Source of the DNA: Sediminispirochaeta smaragdinae DSM 11293
Lineage (GTDB): Bacteria; Spirochaetota; Spirochaetia; DSM-16054; Sediminispirochaetaceae
Direction: 5' to 3'
NCBI RefSeq assembly: GCF_000143985.1
Contig: NC_014364.1
Coordinates: 3,224,001-3,288,000, forward strand
Length of the DNA: 64,000 nt
In this document: positions 31,282-40,541 of the stretch, piece by piece
Numbering within the stretch: position 1 is the first letter of the stretch
Layout: each line of letters begins with the position of its first letter
Program-made: the position numbers and the translations under genes
The notes under the pieces: generated by a model
What the model saw: only the letters and a program-made list of their open reading frames with translations
Database searches by the model: none
Told to the model about the DNA's origin: nothing

Positions 31282-32775
31282 TCAATTTTTTGACCGGCCC
31301 AAAAGTTGTTTAACCGGAACAATTGTTATGAAAAGCAGTATAAAATTAGCAATAAGGATTCCCAACGTAATCGGACGTGTAAAGAAAATCGAAGCGTGAT
31401 CTCCCGACATAATGAGTGAACGGCGAAAATTTTCTTCCATAATAGGTCCAAGTACTTTAGCTATAACAAAAGGAGCCAAAGGGTAATTAAATTTTTGAAT
31501 AATAAAAGCAAGGATTCCAAAAATAAGGGTTATCCAGAGATCATTAATGGAAGTCTCCATTCCATAAGATCCGACAGCGCAAAGTATCAGGATCACGGGA
31601 ATAAGATATTTCTTTTTAACATTCAGAAACATGACAAAAAGTGGAAGGAATAATAGTCCTAAAATAAGAAGAAATACGTTGGAACTGATATACGCAAGAA
31701 AGATTCCTCCTATCAAATCCTGATTTTGAATAAAGAGACGCGGTCCCGGAATATATCCTAACAACATAAGGGCCGCTAAGAGCATGGCAGAACAGGGATC
31801 TCCCGGAAGAGCCATGGTCAGAGAAGGGATGAGGGTTCCTCCGCAGCAGGCATTATTGGCCGATTCGGTAGCTATGACGCCATCAGGAATTCCCGTTCCG
31901 TATTTTTCCGGGTGTTTGGAACTGTTTTTTGCCACAGCATACGATAGGAAACTGGCGATCACCGAACCGGCACCGGGAAGGGCGCCTATAAAGGTACCAA
32001 TAGTACTTGACCGAAAAAGATTGAATCTTTGTTTGAAATTTTCCGTTATCGCACTAATCGGCGGAAAGAATACTTTTAAATGCGGACTGGTATCAAAATC
32101 TCCACGTTCTACCTGAAGGAACATTTCACTGATGGCAAACAACCCGATTACCATGGCAACAATTCCAATACCTCCGGAGAGAGCCACTGTACCGAAGGTA
32201 AAACGGAAGTTGCTCATAAAAGGATCCATTCCTACGGTGGCCAGAAGTAATCCGAGACATCCTGTCATCAGTCCTTTTATTGTTGAACCTTTGGAGACAA
32301 CAGCAATACAGAGAACACCGGTAAGAGCCAGTGCAAAATATTCAGGAGGAGAAAATTTAAGAGCAACTTTAGCAAGTAGCGGAGAGAAAAAGATCAGATA
32401 GATTCCACCGATAATCCCTCCAAAAGCCGAGGTGGTTATAGCCAGGCTGACAGCAAAAGGGGCTTTTCCTTTTTGAGCCAAGGGATACCCATCAAGAAGT
32501 GTTGCTGCGGCAATAGGAGTACCAGGAATTTTGAGAAGAATAGCCGATATAGCACCACCAGCCGTGCCGCCGACGAATATTCCGAGGAGTAATCCCATAC
32601 CGGTAAAAGGATTCAGATTCATGGCCATGGGCGTCAACAGGGTAAGGCCCAAAAGAGGTCCCAAGCCAGGCAGAATACCGATCAAGATACCAATGAAGAC
32701 ACCTACTGCGGTAAAAAAAAGATTAGCAAAACTGAAATAAGCAGGAATTCCGGCATGTAACAATTCTAAAAACAT
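31282..32775 (-). CDS. tctA: tripartite tricarboxylate transporter large membrane subunit (TctA)
   Basis: 497 residues with about eleven or twelve hydrophobic segments. The TctA signatures are GILIGILPGLGPLLGLTLL near the N-terminus and GALPGAGSVIASFLSYAVAKN in the second half, with TESANNACCGGTLIPSLTMALPGDPCSAMLLAALM following. It forms the channel of the TTT importer with TctB and the binding protein TctC. Location directly before a sulfatase suggests the importer carries a sulfated organic acid rather than citrate. Confidence 0.94.
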   Translation of the reverse strand: MFLELLHAGIPAYFSFANLFFTAVGVFIGILIGILPGLGPLLGLTLLTPMAMNLNPFTGMGLLLGIFVGGTAGGAISAILLKIPGTPIAAATLLDGYPLAQKGKAPFAVSLAITTSAFGGIIGGIYLIFFSPLLAKVALKFSPPEYFALALTGVLCIAVVSKGSTIKGLMTGCLGLLLATVGMDPFMSNFRFTFGTVALSGGIGIVAMVIGLFAISEMFLQVERGDFDTSPHLKVFFPPISAITENFKQRFNLFRSSTIGTFIGALPGAGSVIASFLSYAVAKNSSKHPEKYGTGIPDGVIATESANNACCGGTLIPSLTMALPGDPCSAMLLAALMLLGYIPGPRLFIQNQDLIGGIFLAYISSNVFLLILGLLFLPLFVMFLNVKKKYLIPVILILCAVGSYGMETSINDLWITLIFGILAFIIQKFNYPLAPFVIAKVLGPIMEENFRRSLIMSGDHASIFFTRPITLGILIANFILLFITIVPVKQLLGRSKN

Positions 32776-32784
32776 AAAGAATCC

Positions 32785-33288
32785 TTAAAAGTAAAGGCCG
32801 AACTTGCCTACGGGCAATACAACCTTGAGCAATATCGCGAACGCGTACCAGATAAAAACAGTAGTTCCGATAGATAAAAGGATGAGAGGTATGGTTTTCC
32901 GGACTCCCAATATGAAAAAAAAGACAAGCAGGGCAAGCGGCGTACTCACATAATACCCCAGGATGCTCAGGGCAATAACATATGCCACAAAGCATACAAA
33001 CATAAGCGCAAGACGCTTTCGTCCCTCAGATTCAAAGATCGGAACAGCTTTTTCATCAGAGGGACTATTACTGGCCTGAATAAAAATTCGTACAGTATTA
33101 ATTCCTATCAGGAATAACAGCAGGAAAGAAATCATCCGGGGAAAAAGAGCTGCATTTTGTTCCCCTCCTCCGGTGTTCATCCCCAGATCAACAAATTTCG
33201 TGTACGTTTCGAATAGAGCAATCAGGGGTACAAGAGAAAAACACCAGCTGATAATCAGTTCCTGCTTCTGTTTTTGTGATATTTTCAT
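32785..33288 (-). CDS. tctB: tripartite tricarboxylate transporter small membrane subunit (TctB)
   Basis: 167 residues with four hydrophobic segments, as expected for TctB; conserved features are FPRMISFLLLFLIGINTVRIF and the paired helices at the C-terminus. It lies between tctC and tctA on the same strand, with a CAGGAGA ribosome site. Confidence 0.9.
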   Translation of the reverse strand: MKISQKQKQELIISWCFSLVPLIALFETYTKFVDLGMNTGGGEQNAALFPRMISFLLLFLIGINTVRIFIQASNSPSDEKAVPIFESEGRKRLALMFVCFVAYVIALSILGYYVSTPLALLVFFFILGVRKTIPLILLSIGTTVFIWYAFAILLKVVLPVGKFGLYF

Positions 33289-33361
33289 AATCTCTCCTGA
33301 TGTTTATCTGTTTTATGTTATACGGGAAAGTGTATTCCTATCCCGTATAACGAAATACCTG

Positions 33362-34375
33362 TTACTTATTATATTTTTTGATTTCTGCTTTTTCCCATTC
33401 GATAGCCGCCAAGGCAGACTTCAGCTGTTCTGTCATGAGAGTACATTCTTTAATATAATTTTCAGGATTGTAAACATCTGTGGGCATGGGAAGATATCCC
33501 ATATCGGAAACCTGCTTCTGAATCTTCGGATCATCAAGAGCCTTTTTAAGAGCCGCTCTTAGTACTTCCGCGACATCATCGGGGGTTTCCTTACGGACAA
33601 GCCACCAGGTCCACCCGGTAGCGGCCAGCCCATCCAAACCGATGGAGTAGCCAAAATCCTTTACCAGCGGCATACCCGGGAATGCAGGCTGGGGAAGATC
33701 ACTGAGGACAGCCAGGATTCGAACCTCGTCTTTATAGGTGTTGTACCCTCCCGAGTTCATAACATTAAAATCAAGTTCGCCGGCCAGCAGTTCCTTAATT
33801 CCTTCGTTGGAATCATTATAGGGAACATGCCTCGTTACAGCTCCGGTGCTCTTAAGAAGTGACGCCGAAGACATATGGGGAAGAGAAATATCGGCTCCTG
33901 AGCTGTAGCTGAGAACACCGGGATTCGCTTTCGCATACTCAATAAGAGCAGTAAGATCGGGGAACCTGTCGTCGTCCTTGCATACAACGATGGTAAAGGC
34001 ATTGGAAACAACACCGTAGAGGGGTTTAAAATCTTCAAATGTATAATCAGTTTTTCCAAAAAGAGGAGAAAGTATTAAGGGAGCCACATAACCATCAAAA
34101 ATTGTATATCCGTCCGCCGGTTTGGACATCACCGTCATGGCCGCTTTGACACCGCTGGCTCCTGTTGTTGATGTTACGCTCACATTTACGCCAAGATTTT
34201 CCCCCATGGCATTCGCTACAACCTGTGAAGCCGCATAGGTAGCTCCAGGTCCCCAGGGAAAGATATTCTGAATAGGACGATCTGGAAAGTTAGTCTCTCC
34301 CTGCCCGTTGGCAAAACCCGAAACAGCCAGACAAGAAATGAGAACCGCTACAATAGAGATCTTCTTTATACTCAC
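33362..34375 (-). CDS. tctC: tripartite tricarboxylate transporter binding protein (TctC/Bug)
   Basis: 337 residues from a GTG start with an AGGAGA site. The signal peptide ends VSGFANGQGETN, without a lipobox cysteine. The Bug fold is recognisable: FPDRPIQNIFPWGPGATYAASQ binding loop, then TTGASGVKAAMTVMSKPADGYTIF and HVPYNDSNEGIKELLAGELDF. It captures the substrate for TctAB and is the first gene of the sulfate-ester module, divergent from a LysR regulator. Confidence 0.92.
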   Translation of the reverse strand: MSIKKISIVAVLISCLAVSGFANGQGETNFPDRPIQNIFPWGPGATYAASQVVANAMGENLGVNVSVTSTTGASGVKAAMTVMSKPADGYTIFDGYVAPLILSPLFGKTDYTFEDFKPLYGVVSNAFTIVVCKDDDRFPDLTALIEYAKANPGVLSYSSGADISLPHMSSASLLKSTGAVTRHVPYNDSNEGIKELLAGELDFNVMNSGGYNTYKDEVRILAVLSDLPQPAFPGMPLVKDFGYSIGLDGLAATGWTWWLVRKETPDDVAEVLRAALKKALDDPKIQKQVSDMGYLPMPTDVYNPENYIKECTLMTEQLKSALAAIEWEKAEIKKYNK

Positions 34376-34543: not shown

Positions 34544-35446
34544 ATCTTACACAAATACCTGGAACATTTTAAAACGGTAGCGGAGACCTCTTCCATATTA
34601 AGGGCTTCGGAAGTCCTCCATATTTCTCAGCCAGCTCTTTCCAGAAGCATAAAGCTTCTGGAAGAGATTCTGGATACACCTCTTTTTATAAGAAAAAATA
34701 AAGGGGTGGAAATTACTGAATACGGGAATATCCTTTACAAACAAGTTTGTTCCATGGGTAATGAATTTAATTATGCCTTACAGGAAATAGACTATCTTAA
34801 GAATCAAAACATCAGAAAACTAACAATCGGTTCCGGCCTGGTCTGGCAGTACAGTATATTCCCCAACGTAATTCAGCAGTTTACCACTCAGTTCCCCGAT
34901 ACACAAATACGGATAATAACTGGTTTCTCCGATACGTTGTATGAACAATTCCTCAAAGGTCAGTTCGATATAATTTTCTGCGATCTTGGCTCACTAAAGC
35001 CAATGACCGGTATTGTATTCGAACACCTGATGAATACGTGTTTCTCTTTTTTTGCGGTATGGAGCCATCCGATTTTTTCAAGAGAAAACATTACAGAACA
35101 GGATTTACTGGATTATGATATCGCTATCTTCTCTCATAGTAACATTCTATCAACACAGAATGATATATCAGACAGGCATCAGATCGACGTCAGGCTTCAG
35201 AGAAATATTAAGTATATAAGCAGTTCCATGATCAATCTTCTGGAAGTTGTCGGTTCTTCCCGATACCTGACACCCATACCGCCGTCGCTGCAACATATCG
35301 CTGAACAATTCGGATTAAAGGAAATAAATCCCAAGCTAAGAAGAGATGCCTTCCCCAGCGGAATGGTGTATCGAAAAGCAGCTCTGAAAAAACCGCATGT
35401 CAAATCGTACATTGATGCAGTAAGAGCTTCAATAAAAACATCATAA
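34544..35446 (+). CDS. LysR-family transcriptional regulator (non-canonical start)
   Basis: 300 residues if read from the intact helix-turn-helix, normal for the family. The N-terminal domain is LHKYLEHFKTVAETSSILRA followed by SEVLHISQPALSRSIKLLEE, then the effector domain (IRKLTIGSGLVWQYSIFPNVIQQF). There is no ATG, GTG or TTG in frame between the upstream TAA and the helix-turn-helix. The only plausible starts are ATC 34544 (5 bases after a GGGGAG site), ATA 34541 or TTA 34547. The first standard start (GTG 34706) would remove the DNA-binding domain. It may use a rare start codon or be silenced by a start mutation. It is divergent from the TctC/sulfatase operon, its probable target. Confidence 0.8.
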   Translation: MLHKYLEHFKTVAETSSILRASEVLHISQPALSRSIKLLEEILDTPLFIRKNKGVEITEYGNILYKQVCSMGNEFNYALQEIDYLKNQNIRKLTIGSGLVWQYSIFPNVIQQFTTQFPDTQIRIITGFSDTLYEQFLKGQFDIIFCDLGSLKPMTGIVFEHLMNTCFSFFAVWSHPIFSRENITEQDLLDYDIAIFSHSNILSTQNDISDRHQIDVRLQRNIKYISSSMINLLEVVGSSRYLTPIPPSLQHIAEQFGLKEINPKLRRDAFPSGMVYRKAALKKPHVKSYIDAVRASIKTS

Positions 35447-35481: not shown

Positions 35482-36738
35482 ATGGATATATATCTTCCGG
35501 AGATAGGTAATGGTATCTTAATGATGCAATGGTTCTCTAATAATATTGATATATGCTTGTCCTTTATTATGTATTCATTCCTGGGATGGGTTATTGAATC
35601 AGCCTACAAAACGTTCAGGGAGCATAAAGGATTTATAAATTCCGGTTTTCTCAACAATCCGCTGATACCAATATATGGCATTGGTGCTGTTATTATCATT
35701 TTAATCGATGCAAAAGTGGGAAATATCCCATTTCCGATAAAAGTCATACTATTTACGATTGTTTGCACAATATTAGAATATATTACAGGTTTTCTTATCG
35801 AAAAAATATTTCGCATAAAACTCTGGAATTATGCCAACAGGACGCTAAATCTTCACGGAAGGATCTGCCTACTCAATACATTCTATTGGAGTTTGTTAAT
35901 TACGGTATTCCTGCTTTATATTCGGCCGATGGTTGAAGCACATCTATTGACATCGCTTTCTTTCATACAGAAGTTTTATATAACTGTCATACTATATGGA
36001 GTAATCGTAACAGATTTTATTATTAGTACCTTGGAATTGAAGAGCACTACCCGTATCATAAACAATATAGTGACAAACATGAAAACGTTTAATGAAATTC
36101 TCGTGGCCTCTTTTTCCAAGAAAATGAAAACACGATTTCTGAAAGTTTTCCCTAATCTTGGTACTATCTATAATGAACAGTTGAAAAATAATTTACTCTA
36201 CACCCTAGAAAAGAAAATCGAACAAAATAATATCAGGAAAGCTATAGGGATTATCATCACCCCCCCTGAAGTACCTGAAGAAATGGATCAGCAGTATGTT
36301 TCCATCGTAAAAGATCTCATAGACGACGAGAACGTACTGAAGATGTCAAATTTTCCTCATCATGACAGTAGTACCCTCAAACATTGTCTGACGGTATCCC
36401 AGGTTTCCTATTATTTGGCAAAAGAATTTAATCTGGATGTGCAATCGACCTCACGTGGATCGTTATTGCACGATTTCTATCTTTATAATTGGCAAGACGG
36501 AGTAAAAAGAAACCATGCTATGAAGCATTCCAAGATTGCACTTGAGAATGCAAAAAAGTTGTTCAAACTCAATGGAATAGAAGAAGATATTATCGTCAAG
36601 CATATGTGGCCACTAACAAACAGGTTCTTCAGATATAAAGAAGCATTTCTTGTAAGCATGGTTGACAAACTTGTATCCGTAGTAGAAGTCAAGAATGCTC
36701 TCAAGAAGATCGTGAACAAAAAGATCAATAAAGTGTAA
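35482..36738 (+). CDS. CmpB-type membrane domain fused to an HD domain
   Basis: 418 residues. The N-terminal ~190 residues resemble the ABC_trans_CmpB family (PF06541): IMYSFLGWVIESAYKTFREHKGFINSGFLNNPLIPIYGIG with about five membrane helices. A helical linker follows. The C-terminal ~120 residues look like an HD phosphohydrolase: LKHCLTVSQVSYYLAKEF, SLLHDFYLYNW (the HD pair), KHMWPL. CmpB-like proteins with such tails are not a well-characterised type. ATG 35521 may be the real start, since the ribosome site for 35482 has no spacing. It is probably membrane-bound with a cytosolic phosphatase. Confidence 0.75.
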   Translation: MDIYLPEIGNGILMMQWFSNNIDICLSFIMYSFLGWVIESAYKTFREHKGFINSGFLNNPLIPIYGIGAVIIILIDAKVGNIPFPIKVILFTIVCTILEYITGFLIEKIFRIKLWNYANRTLNLHGRICLLNTFYWSLLITVFLLYIRPMVEAHLLTSLSFIQKFYITVILYGVIVTDFIISTLELKSTTRIINNIVTNMKTFNEILVASFSKKMKTRFLKVFPNLGTIYNEQLKNNLLYTLEKKIEQNNIRKAIGIIITPPEVPEEMDQQYVSIVKDLIDDENVLKMSNFPHHDSSTLKHCLTVSQVSYYLAKEFNLDVQSTSRGSLLHDFYLYNWQDGVKRNHAMKHSKIALENAKKLFKLNGIEEDIIVKHMWPLTNRFFRYKEAFLVSMVDKLVSVVEVKNALKKIVNKKINKV

Positions 36739-36776
36739 TCTGAAAACTCTCTCTTTGGCAAGATAAGAATTTATTT

Positions 36777-36850
36777 TGAACGCGACGGGATTCGAACCCA
36801 CGACTTCCACCTCCGGAGGGTGGCGCTCTATCCAGCTGAGCTACGCGTCC
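36777..36850 (-). tRNA. tRNA-Arg (anticodon CCG)
   Basis: Cloverleaf on the minus strand: acceptor GGACGCG/CGCGTTC, D-arm with AGCTCAGCTGGATAGAGC, anticodon stem CCACC/GGTGG around loop CTCCGGA (anticodon CCG, codon CGG), and T-loop TTCGAAT. The CCA end is not encoded. It is a single isolated gene between the CmpB-HD gene and the rhomboid gene. Confidence 0.95.
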
Positions 36851-36904
36851 AGTGTGAAGATTACTATAGCGATATGAACGCCCCTCTGTCAAGGTGGTGA
36901 GGGT

Positions 36905-37033
36905 ATGGGAAGTTTACGGTGCATCGAACTGGAGGGGAGAGCCGACCGGCAGAAACGCTGGAAACAGCGGCTTGTCTCACGTGGAGCAATTCTTGACAGC
37001 AATGGCCGGAGCAGGCTATCGTTAGTCACATGA
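36905..37033 (+). CDS. 42-residue leader peptide coupled to the rhomboid gene
   Basis: Short reading frame MGSLRCIELEGRADRQKRWK (first 20 residues), very basic, ending in an ATGA overlap with the rhomboid start. An AGGTGG site lies upstream of its ATG. No family is recognised. The exact stop/start overlap is the main argument that it is translated; it could equally be chance. Confidence 0.4.
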   Translation: MGSLRCIELEGRADRQKRWKQRLVSRGAILDSNGRSRLSLVT

Positions 37034-37587
37034 AGATACGCTATAACGCACCGGTAACCCTCACCTTCGCCCTTATATCCGCGACAGTACTGCTTCTCGA
37101 CCAGCTTTTTGGTCTCCATCTGATCTCCACCTTTTTCATCGTTCCGGGCAAGGGCGGGTTTGATCCCACTTTTGCCCCCGGCTATCTTCGTCTCGTTACT
37201 CATATTATCGGCCATGTGGGATGGCAGCATCTTTTGGGGAATTTTTCCATCATCCTTTTGATAGGTCCGATTCTCGAGGAGAAATACGGCTCTTCATCCC
37301 TGCTTGTCATGATTCTTCTCACTGCACTGATCACGGGACTTCTCAATGTGCTCTTTTTTCCGACGGCGCTGCTCGGTGCCAGCGGGGTGGCATTCATGAT
37401 GATCCTGCTTGTCAGCTTTACGAATATTCGGAGTGGAGATGTGCCCCTCACCTTTATCTTGATCCTTCTCTTCTATCTTGCCAGAGAGGTCATGAACAGC
37501 TTACAGACCAATCAGATTTCGGAATTTGCTCATATTGTCGGCGGGTTCTGTGGAAGTCTTTTTGGTTTTCTGAAGCCGAGGCGTTAA
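37030..37587 (+). CDS. rhomboid-family intramembrane serine protease
   Basis: 185 residues with about six membrane segments, the compact bacterial rhomboid form. Catalytic features are HVGWQHLLGNFSIILLIGPILEEKYG (the HxxxN element), GASGVAFMMI with the nucleophile Ser, and FAHIVGGFCGSLFGF with the base His. It cleaves transmembrane substrates within the bilayer; no client is evident nearby. Its start overlaps a possible 42-residue leader frame. Confidence 0.92.
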   Translation: MKIRYNAPVTLTFALISATVLLLDQLFGLHLISTFFIVPGKGGFDPTFAPGYLRLVTHIIGHVGWQHLLGNFSIILLIGPILEEKYGSSSLLVMILLTALITGLLNVLFFPTALLGASGVAFMMILLVSFTNIRSGDVPLTFILILLFYLAREVMNSLQTNQISEFAHIVGGFCGSLFGFLKPRR

Positions 37588-37614: not shown

Positions 37615-39180
37615 TCATCCATCGACAACAGAAGAGTCTCCATTATAGAAAAGGAAAAAAAGCTCGGAACGGGTCGAAACGGTCGCTTTCTTAAAGATTC
37701 GGGAGATGTGCGTTTTTGTGGTACTCATCGAAATGAACAAGGTGTCGGAAATTTCCTTATTCGTTTTTCCCTGAAGCATGAGAAGGGCTATCTCCTGTTC
37801 CCGACCCGATAGGCCCAATTCCCTGCTCTGCTTCTGAAGTGAAAGGTTCCCTCCCATCTCTTTGTTCGATATCTTCCGCCTTGTTACGTCGGGGTGCTTG
37901 AAAAAGTATGCAAGGCTTAAGAGGTTGATCAACATGAGAAGCAAAAGATAGGAAGCAACATTGACAGGAAGGGAGTTGAGTCTGATATGAATGTTGTAAT
38001 ACTCCAAAAAGGAAAGAGGAAGATAGGTTCCCATCGAAATTCTGTCGTTGGAAAAATAGGCGCTGCTGAGCACCGACCCGAACAGAATCAGCATTGCGAT
38101 AAGAAGGACCCGCGACCCCGGTCTTTTGGCAATGAGAGCCTGAAAGACAACGGCAAAGCCGACACTAAAAAGTAGAAATGCGTATATCTGGAACCAAGAA
38201 TTAATAGGGGAGTAAAAGCGGGCTGGGCTAAGTGTCACAAACAAGAGAATTGCAGCATAGGGCACCAGCAGCAAAAAAACGCTTTTATGCGTCATTCCTC
38301 CGTAAAGTTCATATAAAAAAAGCAGCAGAAGCACTGGAATTGAATAGCTGAGGTAATAACAGATCTTTTGATAAAGCTCCCAGGGGAAATCGGGAAGATA
38401 CGTGAAGATAAGCACATTTGGTGTTCCCACCATGCCGTTGATACCGATAACCAAAAGCAAGGTGGCCAGCAGCCATATGGCGCGGTCTCTTCTGATGATC
38501 CAGAAAGCAAGTTGATAGACGCTCATGGTGAGAAAGACAGCGACAAAGGCCCAGTCGATGAAATAGGACCAGTAATCGACCTGCCACACGGTATCGGGAT
38601 CGGCAAGGAGGATCGATTGGAAGGCGCCCCCCCGCCGATGATCGAAATTGGAGACCTGTAAGATTAATTCGGCATGATCCTCACGTGCATGAAACTCCAC
38701 AACTTGGGGAAAATAACCGGGACGAGAGTTTTCTCTGGAGGTTCCGACAACACCGTTTTTCGCTAACAACGTTCTGTCAAGGTAGAGCATATAGGCGGTT
38801 CCCATGTAGGGCACCCGTAGACAATAGGCATGTCCGGGAATCAATCCATATATCGTAATCCTATATGAGGCATAGCCAAAGCGACTGTCGCTCCAGGTAT
38901 GAGGAAGTACCGTATATTCTGCCTCCTTCCAATCATGAAACGTGAGTGCGTTTCTGGCGAACTCCCACTCACCTTCCAAAGCAAGGGCGAAATGGTCCTT
39001 TCCATGCAAATCAACCATTCCATTCACAACGGGGTGGCTGGAATGCCCCTTTGTGGGGATGAGATAGAGCAGAGCGAAAAAGGATAAGAAGAGCAATGAA
39101 AAAGAGGCAAAACGAAACGGGGTGGGCTCTTTCCACACTCCGGATTCGAGAAACTGTTTCAGACTAATTTTTTTTCCCAT
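37615..39180 (-). CDS. 7TMR-DISM receptor with C-terminal LuxR DNA-binding domain
   Basis: 521 residues in three parts. After a first membrane segment (about 24-42) comes an extracytoplasmic 7TMR-DISMED2-like beta-sandwich (about 50-210: VDLHGKDHFALALEGEWEF, FGYASYRITIYGL, AELILQVSNFDHRRGG). Next is a seven-helix membrane domain (about 215-440). The C-terminus is a LuxR/GerE helix-turn-helix: LGLSGREQEIALLMLQGKTNKEISDTLFISMSTTKTHISRIFKKA. Thus a carbohydrate-type receptor is joined directly to a DNA-binding domain without a kinase. It should either act while tethered to the membrane or be released by proteolysis. A GGAAGGG site precedes ATG 39180. Confidence 0.88.
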   Translation of the reverse strand: MGKKISLKQFLESGVWKEPTPFRFASFSLLFLSFFALLYLIPTKGHSSHPVVNGMVDLHGKDHFALALEGEWEFARNALTFHDWKEAEYTVLPHTWSDSRFGYASYRITIYGLIPGHAYCLRVPYMGTAYMLYLDRTLLAKNGVVGTSRENSRPGYFPQVVEFHAREDHAELILQVSNFDHRRGGAFQSILLADPDTVWQVDYWSYFIDWAFVAVFLTMSVYQLAFWIIRRDRAIWLLATLLLVIGINGMVGTPNVLIFTYLPDFPWELYQKICYYLSYSIPVLLLLFLYELYGGMTHKSVFLLLVPYAAILLFVTLSPARFYSPINSWFQIYAFLLFSVGFAVVFQALIAKRPGSRVLLIAMLILFGSVLSSAYFSNDRISMGTYLPLSFLEYYNIHIRLNSLPVNVASYLLLLMLINLLSLAYFFKHPDVTRRKISNKEMGGNLSLQKQSRELGLSGREQEIALLMLQGKTNKEISDTLFISMSTTKTHISRIFKKATVSTRSELFFLFYNGDSSVVDG

Positions 39181-39473: not shown

Positions 39474-40541
39474 ATGATCGACAAGTTAGAAAGCATTGCC
39501 TCACGTTTTACCGAGATTGAAGAACGCCTCGGTGAGCCGGATACCATGAAAGACATGCACCTCTACAAGGAGCTGAGTCAGGAGCATGCCGCATTAAAGG
39601 ATACGGTTGAAGAGTTTGGCCACTATAAGGAATTACTCTCCGGTATCGAAGAAACGAAACAGCTTCTTGAATCGGAAAGCGACCATGAAATGAGGGAAAT
39701 GGCCGAGGTTGAGCTTGAAGAGTTGAAAGATCATCTGGAAAAGAGTGAAAAGCGTCTGAAAACTCTTCTTGTTCCCAAGGATCCTCTGGACGGGAAAAAC
39801 ACCATCATTGAAATTCGTGCCGGAACCGGGGGTGATGAGGCTTCGCTCTTTGCCGCCGACCTGTATAGAATGTATTCTCGCTTCAGCGAGCAAAAGGGAT
39901 GGAAGCTGGAAATGATGGAATCCAGCGATACCGAGGTCGGAGGGTTCAAAGAGGTCATCTTTTCTATTTCGGGAAAAGAGGTCTATGGCAACCTCCGCTA
40001 CGAAAGCGGAGTCCATCGGGTCCAGCGGGTTCCTTCCACCGAAAGCCAGGGAAGGATTCATACCTCGGCGGTGACGGTGGCGGTGTTGCCCGAGGCTGAA
40101 AAGACCGATATCGATATCAGCCCGGAAGACCTGAAGATCGATGTCTTCCGTTCTTCCGGCCCCGGCGGACAGAGTGTGAATACCACCGACTCGGCGGTCA
40201 GGGTTACCCACATTCCTACGGGAGTGGTTGTCACCTGTCAGGATGAAAAGAGCCAGCTGAAAAATAAGGCAAAGGCGCTGCGGGTTCTCAGGGCACGTTT
40301 GTATGAGGCGGAAGAGATGAAGCAACGCAAGGAGCGGGACCAGGCAAGAAAGAGTCAAATCGGTTCGGGAGACCGTTCCGAGCGGATCAGAACCTATAAC
40401 TTCCCCCAGAACAGGGTGACCGATCATAGGATCAACCTGACCCTGTACAAACTTGACCAGGTGATGGAAGGTGCGCTGAACGAGTTGATTGACGCGCTGA
40501 AGCTGAGTATCACCGAGGAGCTGCTGAAGCAGCACGCTTGA
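39474..40541 (+). CDS. prfA: peptide chain release factor 1
   Basis: 355 residues, standard for RF1, which ends translation at UAA and UAG. The domain 3 motif [22 protein letters not shown] carries the universal GGQ that triggers peptide release. The N-terminal helical domain ([19 protein letters not shown]) and [15 protein letters not shown]-like [17 protein letters not shown] are RF1 signatures. It overlaps prmC, which encodes the enzyme that methylates this GGQ glutamine, by a TGATG junction. Confidence 0.97.

Follow-up and report, generated by a model that had tools for sequence, protein, structure and literature searches.

In this study, we found that a gene on the minus strand of the window (the whole 64,000-nucleotide stretch analysed) at positions 37615..39180 encodes a seven-helix 7TMR-DISM receptor fused to a C-terminal LuxR-type helix-turn-helix (HTH). 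The source genome is one contig of 4,653,970 bases, and the reading frame starts with ATG and encodes 521 aa. A DNA-binding domain and transmembrane regions are thus combined in one protein, which places it among the transmembrane transcription regulators. We consider it probable that it acts as an uncleaved one-component transcription regulator, in which the ectodomain senses, the seven helices relay and the HTH acts from the membrane.

The domain content was examined using Pfam. Residues 206-399 matched 7TMR-DISM_7TM (PF07695) with 47.5 bits against a cut-off of 29, and residues 457-508 matched GerE (PF00196) with 51.9 bits against 23.5. Since both domains passed their cut-offs and the same order recurs in full-length homologues, the fusion proposed in the original prediction was confirmed. 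In NCBIfam, the 25 matches listed were to the HTH region of larger families, all below their cut-offs. A PDB sequence search with the receptor recovered only proteins with an HTH of this type, VraR and NarL among them. It had also been stated that 7TMR-DISM proteins usually carry other outputs, and L152, the other DISM protein encoded in this genome, agrees with this. L152 shares the ectodomain and 7TM region with the receptor (26% identity over residues 33-392), but its output is a diguanylate cyclase (GGDEF) and not a LuxR HTH.

The fold and the membrane topology were predicted. An AlphaFold2 model was built from 31 sequences with a mean pLDDT of 82.6. It begins with a helix at residues 21-40, within a putative signal-anchor helix that hydropathy placed at residues 21-42 (39055..39120, minus strand, as are all parts of the gene). 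Beta strands from 55 to 193 form a predicted extracytoplasmic jelly roll (38602..39018). The seven-helix domain at residues 195-428 (37897..38598) was assigned from PF07695, hydropathy, the model helices and the charges of the loops, with TM7 at low confidence. A linker at residues 429-456 (37813..37896) contains a predicted helix (431-454), also at low confidence. It is followed by the LuxR/GerE HTH at residues 457-508 (37657..37812), which is related by sequence to solved proteins of the NarL/VraR type and was modelled as helices between 459 and 513 with pLDDT of 88-97. The block-mean pLDDT was below 60 across residues 381 to 450, that is, in TM7 and the linker, so any path of the signal through the receptor is a guess.

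Foldseek and VIA alignment of the model paired residues ~60-195 with the N-terminal domain that GH2 beta-glucuronidases and beta-galactosidases carry, at E 6.7e-6 for Foldseek and a Z of up to 12.2 for VIA; in its top row, VIA aligned 134 residues with 13% identity. A Pfam scan at E up to 1 gave no 7TMR-DISMED match in the ectodomain. Because of the likeness to GH2-type N-terminal domains, the term carbohydrate-type, as used in the original prediction, is fair only as the name of a fold resembling the jelly roll of GH2 beta-glucuronidases. In hand-assigned segments, the numbers of K/R were 4, 3, 1, 2, and 6 in the five inner segments (N-terminus, loops 1, 3, and 5, and tail), whereas the three outer loops had 0, 1, and 2. 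Over its 161 residues, the ectodomain carries 14 K/R and 19 D/E. The K/R counts fit an orientation with the N-terminus inside, the ectodomain outside and the C-terminus inside, which would place the output module in the cytoplasm.

We investigated the distribution of this architecture. Among 60 genomes including its own, a single match spanning both the ectodomain and the HTH was found in two others (G033 and G045). A profile of eight members was then run against 394 genomes of the class, with E up to 1e-60 and a match reaching the HTH columns. The full architecture was found in 12 of the 394 genomes, own included, as 13 genes (G000, G033, G045, G295 with two genes, G408, G482, G485, G491, G497, G499, G504, and G514). 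Several of these 12 genomes contributed rows to the profile, but none came from G485, G491, G497, G504, or G514. The receptor of G491 runs off the end of its contig. An HTH model built in this analysis detected the HTH in all 13 genes. Seven relatives were scanned with Pfam, and both domains passed the cut-offs in four; in the other three (L039, L048, and L010) GerE passed and the 7TM domain stayed below its cut-off, with E from 1.1e-5 to 4e-4. With the threshold set at E up to 1e-40, the eight-member profile matched 23 of 296 genomes of Bacteroidota, to which the Fulvivirga locus belongs; of the 33 matches listed, none extended to the HTH columns. In Bacillota, the phylum of the Paenibacillus locus, 35 of 299 genomes had matches; one, G1181, contained the full architecture in a 517-aa ORF (L193), and two other matches ended at profile columns 465 and 479. 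The same domain order occurs in 12 further genes from 11 other spirochaete genomes and in a single genome of Bacillota, so chance or a wrongly joined ORF does not explain the fusion. The domain order and its recurrence in a family are therefore established, and by sequence comparison the DISM-LuxR proteins are a rare, small family of one-piece membrane regulators.

Two trees were calculated, from which the G491 receptor was excluded since the end of the contig truncates its ectodomain. In the large tree of 82 rows (12 LuxR rows and the 70 best-scoring of 125 other rows), one side of a branch held 11 of the 12 DISM-LuxR rows together with L038, which has no HTH (SH-aLRT 87). In the smaller tree, which included the Bacillota member, counted L038 as LuxR despite its missing HTH and took every third row for the 23 others, 13 of 14 members fell on one side with weak support (74/95). 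A clade of all 14 was not rejected (p-AU 0.146). These groupings make a single origin of DISM-LuxR plausible, and the long-branched member of G504 (L187) may represent a second origin. The nearest relatives of the window gene in the trees were L038 (46% identity) and L186 in G514.

The receptor gene is decayed or truncated in close relatives. In the sister genome G001, it is reduced between the rhomboid gene and prfA to remnants with large deletions; what is left comprises its first codons, a portion of the ectodomain and sequence at the flanks. In L038, from a metagenome bin, the similarity ends before TM7 and is followed by other sequence near ORFs that look transposase-like by eye. The decay in the sister species and the cut before TM7 in the closest relative indicate that the receptor is dispensable.

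The original prediction correctly described a rhomboid protease gene as convergent neighbour of the receptor gene. It lies at 37030..37587 on the plus strand, 27 bases away, and scored 71.9 bits against a cut-off of 22.6 (PF01694). The original prediction had raised the possibility that this protease cleaves the receptor and frees the HTH. The short distance, a GxSG motif and a late histidine recognised by eye in the rhomboid, and the out-to-in orientation that TM7 would have all speak for such a step. However, the comparison of loci points the other way. The rhomboid gene is spread across the class: an orthologue was found in 36 of 59 relatives with E 2.3e-44 or better, and the complete receptor occurred in only two of the 59, on contigs other than that of the rhomboid. 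Sixteen rhomboid loci were compared, own included. At the own locus, the window sequence places a plus-strand gene at 39474..40541, which we take to be prfA from its protein sequence, on the far side of the receptor gene. In nine of the 15 other loci, prfA is the next gene downstream of the rhomboid, in the same orientation and at a distance of 12 to 276 bases; the sister locus has prfA with the receptor remnant in between, and five have no prfA in the examined flank. Only the window has a receptor between the two genes, apart from the remnant in the sister species, which retains a rhomboid 99% identical to that of the window. A search of 11 loci that include the 12 other receptor genes gave no rhomboid homologue, although some flanks are short because contigs end; the L193 locus (G1181) was viewed as a list of ORFs. 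Moreover, bacterial rhomboids cut near the periplasmic face, and after such a cut the HTH would still be joined to TM7. The absence of a conserved link between receptor and rhomboid is thus established, and synteny led us to reject a rhomboid-activated membrane transcription factor as the main reading; cleavage by the adjacent rhomboid appears very improbable. Since the receptor interrupts a rhomboid-prfA pair whose genes adjoin each other elsewhere, and the other receptor loci examined showed no rhomboid, we read the protease as an accidental neighbour and judged both rhomboid and prfA to lie outside the system. The proposed one-component membrane transcription factor therefore stands as an architecture, without the release step.

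Three other readings were weighed. Release of the HTH upon ligand binding by another protease, of the site-2 type, FtsH or the like, has a slim chance of being correct: such release is known for other membrane-tethered regulators, and the low-confidence linker at 429-456 could be exposed. However, the sequence gives no indication of a cleavage site, the HTH of ~65 residues has no obvious dimerisation part of its own, and for the 12-TM LuxR proteins a relay through the membrane domain is proposed in the available text of PMC9734109. It is unlikely, too, that the gene is a relic being lost, with little present function in S. smaragdinae. The decay in the sister, the truncation in the closest metagenomic relative, the lack of functional neighbours and the presence of only two DISM genes in the genome agree with this reading, but the frame of 521 codons is intact and the receptor retains the residues that are invariant among eight aligned members. 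In the LuxR-type domain, the invariant residues E461, G471, N474, E476, I477, T487, and H491, together with the high GerE score, argue against a loss of DNA binding in favour of action through contact with a protein such as another regulator. We regard this last reading as quite improbable, although the recognition-helix stretch is TTKTH in the window receptor and TVKNH in most relatives of the same alignment.

In the uncleaved regulator that we favour, the N-terminal helix and the seven-helix bundle would anchor the receptor to the cytoplasmic membrane. In the periplasm, the jelly roll, similar to the N-terminal domain of GH2 enzymes, would bind a small ligand, plausibly a sugar. A change induced by the ligand would be relayed by the seven helices and then the linker to the HTH of the LuxR type. 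The HTH would then bind DNA, probably as a dimer, with the receptor still in the membrane. The likely targets would be genes for secreted or surface proteins or for uptake systems. We infer the type of ligand, dimerisation, binding of DNA from the membrane and the targets.

The neighbourhoods of the receptor genes in relatives include several genes for putative secreted proteins. In G514, the ORF 90 bases downstream of the receptor on the same strand is lipoprotein-like, and its MACPF match falls narrowly short of the cut-off (21.3 against 21.5 bits). In G295, a series of ORFs that includes a MACPF protein (52.2 bits) lies divergent to one of the two receptors. The two paralogues of this genome are ~9 kb apart (L148:4184-16263) with a block of lipoprotein and MACPF ORFs between them. 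The receptor neighbour is a lipoprotein with Toxin_10 and ricin-B matches in G504, a divergent lipoprotein with CHB_HEX repeats in G033, lipobox-type ORFs in G497 and G491, and in G482 a beta-barrel-like ORF below the Pfam cut-offs. Uptake genes were found in other genomes. In G045 and G499, an aminotransferase-like ORF lies upstream of the receptor and a solute-binding protein downstream, followed in G499 by transporter permease and ATPase ORFs; in G408, TctC and TctA ORFs lie on the divergent side of the receptor. No lipoprotein or uptake neighbour was recognised in G485. A lipobox rule classed as lipoproteins 8 of 25 ORFs flanking the 13 receptors and 13 of 126 further away (Fisher p 0.009), a rough comparison because this home-made rule missed the MACPF lipoprotein of L186, the tested genes are not independent and some flanking ORFs are shadow ORFs (right side of the window gene, left side of L150). 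It is a tentative and rather doubtful proposal that DISM-LuxR proteins form a distinct, ligand-gated family of mostly one origin, which would control secreted lipoproteins (including MACPF and Toxin_10/ricin-B proteins) and nutrient uptake from the membrane without a kinase, a second messenger or proteolysis.

Neither a lipoprotein gene nor a transporter gene directly adjoins the window receptor gene. Since its direct neighbours are housekeeping genes, targets in this genome would lie elsewhere. A MACPF-like lipoprotein (33% identity) is encoded at ~3.554 Mb of the same genome (L191:7280-8839), beside two sets of amino-acid ABC transporter-like ORFs, and both are kinds of gene found next to DISM-LuxR genes in relatives; as a target candidate, this homologue at 3,554 kb is a lead and no more. 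Tripartite tricarboxylate transporter genes, named by eye at 31285-34375 of the window, were considered as partners and rejected. A LysR-type gene, a CmpB-HD gene, a tRNA and the rhomboid intervene, and therefore no link between the receptor and these transporter genes is claimed. Upstream of the window receptor, a search for exact 6-base arms gave one short, chance-like dyad pair, and a promoter and terminator scan gave no promoter-like site near its start. Two imperfect dyads conserved between two genomes lie between a DISM-LuxR stop codon and a solute-binding gene (L182:6246-6422 and L189:7354-7537). By sequence, they could be an operator or, equally, a terminator.

The 7TMR-DISM receptors are said to have been originally described by Anantharaman and Aravind in 2003. 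LadS, RetS, and RgsP (PF07695) share with the window receptor an extracytoplasmic beta domain followed by the seven-helix DISM domain. They differ in their output, which is a kinase, cyclase or phosphatase, and the window ectodomain has no Pfam 7TMR-DISMED2 match. In the available text of the cited papers, calcium binding is cited for the LadS ectodomain (PMC7695008), and glucose-6-phosphate is named as the signal of SagS in a paper using the term 7TMR-DISM (PMC8544897). A 7TMR-DISM protein with a ChiS-family DNA-binding domain shares the C-terminal position of that domain on a DISM receptor, but as far as the available text describes it, this domain is a cryptic HTH of the ChiS type in proteobacteria, whereas that of the window is LuxR/GerE (PMC8092284). 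The 12-TM LuxR regulators DadR, HcdR, and CadR of Coriobacteriia activate metabolic genes and share a multi-pass N-terminus, a C-terminal LuxR HTH and a one-component design (PMC9734109). In the accessible part of that paper they have 10-12 helices with no separate ectodomain reported, whereas the window receptor has one helix, an ectodomain and seven DISM helices. Regulators of the CadC/ToxR kind likewise combine membrane segments and a DNA-binding domain in one protein; in the part of the survey available (PMC10269533), most are single-pass (about 56%), in contrast to the eight helices predicted here, and Spirochaetota are enriched in transmembrane regulators.

No description of a DISM-LuxR fusion was found in the openly licensed literature on 7TMR-DISM, LuxR and membrane HTH proteins; the two papers that mention both 7TMR-DISM and LuxR do not concern such a fusion in their available text, and no paper uniting rhomboid, transcription factor, intramembrane proteolysis and LuxR was found. 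As DISM receptors with a ChiS-family DNA-binding domain and membrane LuxR proteins are already known from the accessible text of these sources, the DISM-LuxR fusion is an added variant. If the preferred reading is true, a receptor and a transcription factor in one chain would be among the shortest routes from an outside signal to a promoter. It would also offer a simple model for the way in which a membrane protein with several passes gains access to DNA and reads it, a question still to be solved for membrane regulators, and it could serve as a chassis for sensors. The neighbourhoods in relatives supply target genes that can be tested.

Shorter proteins with a similar C-terminus were also observed. 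Spirochaete proteins of ~265-340 aa combine several membrane helices with a C-terminal LuxR HTH (L003:1504-2298, L034:561-1493, L037:1477-2457, L149:20-961, and L189:2079-3044), and two of their genes lie within ~6 kb of a DISM-LuxR gene. At its C-terminus, the window receptor resembles L003, L034 and L037, with 38% identity to L003 over residues 358-516. Other features were noted in the window. The HTH of the LysR-type gene at 34706-35446 (plus strand) is encoded in the open frame upstream, to ~34530, before the first ATG, GTG or TTG; for this reason, its start may be unusual or the listed ORF may be too short. A gene at 35482-36738 (plus strand) encodes a 418-aa protein consisting of an ABC_trans_CmpB membrane domain and an HD domain, and a tRNA-Arg(ccg) lies between this gene and the rhomboid at 36776-36851 on the minus strand.
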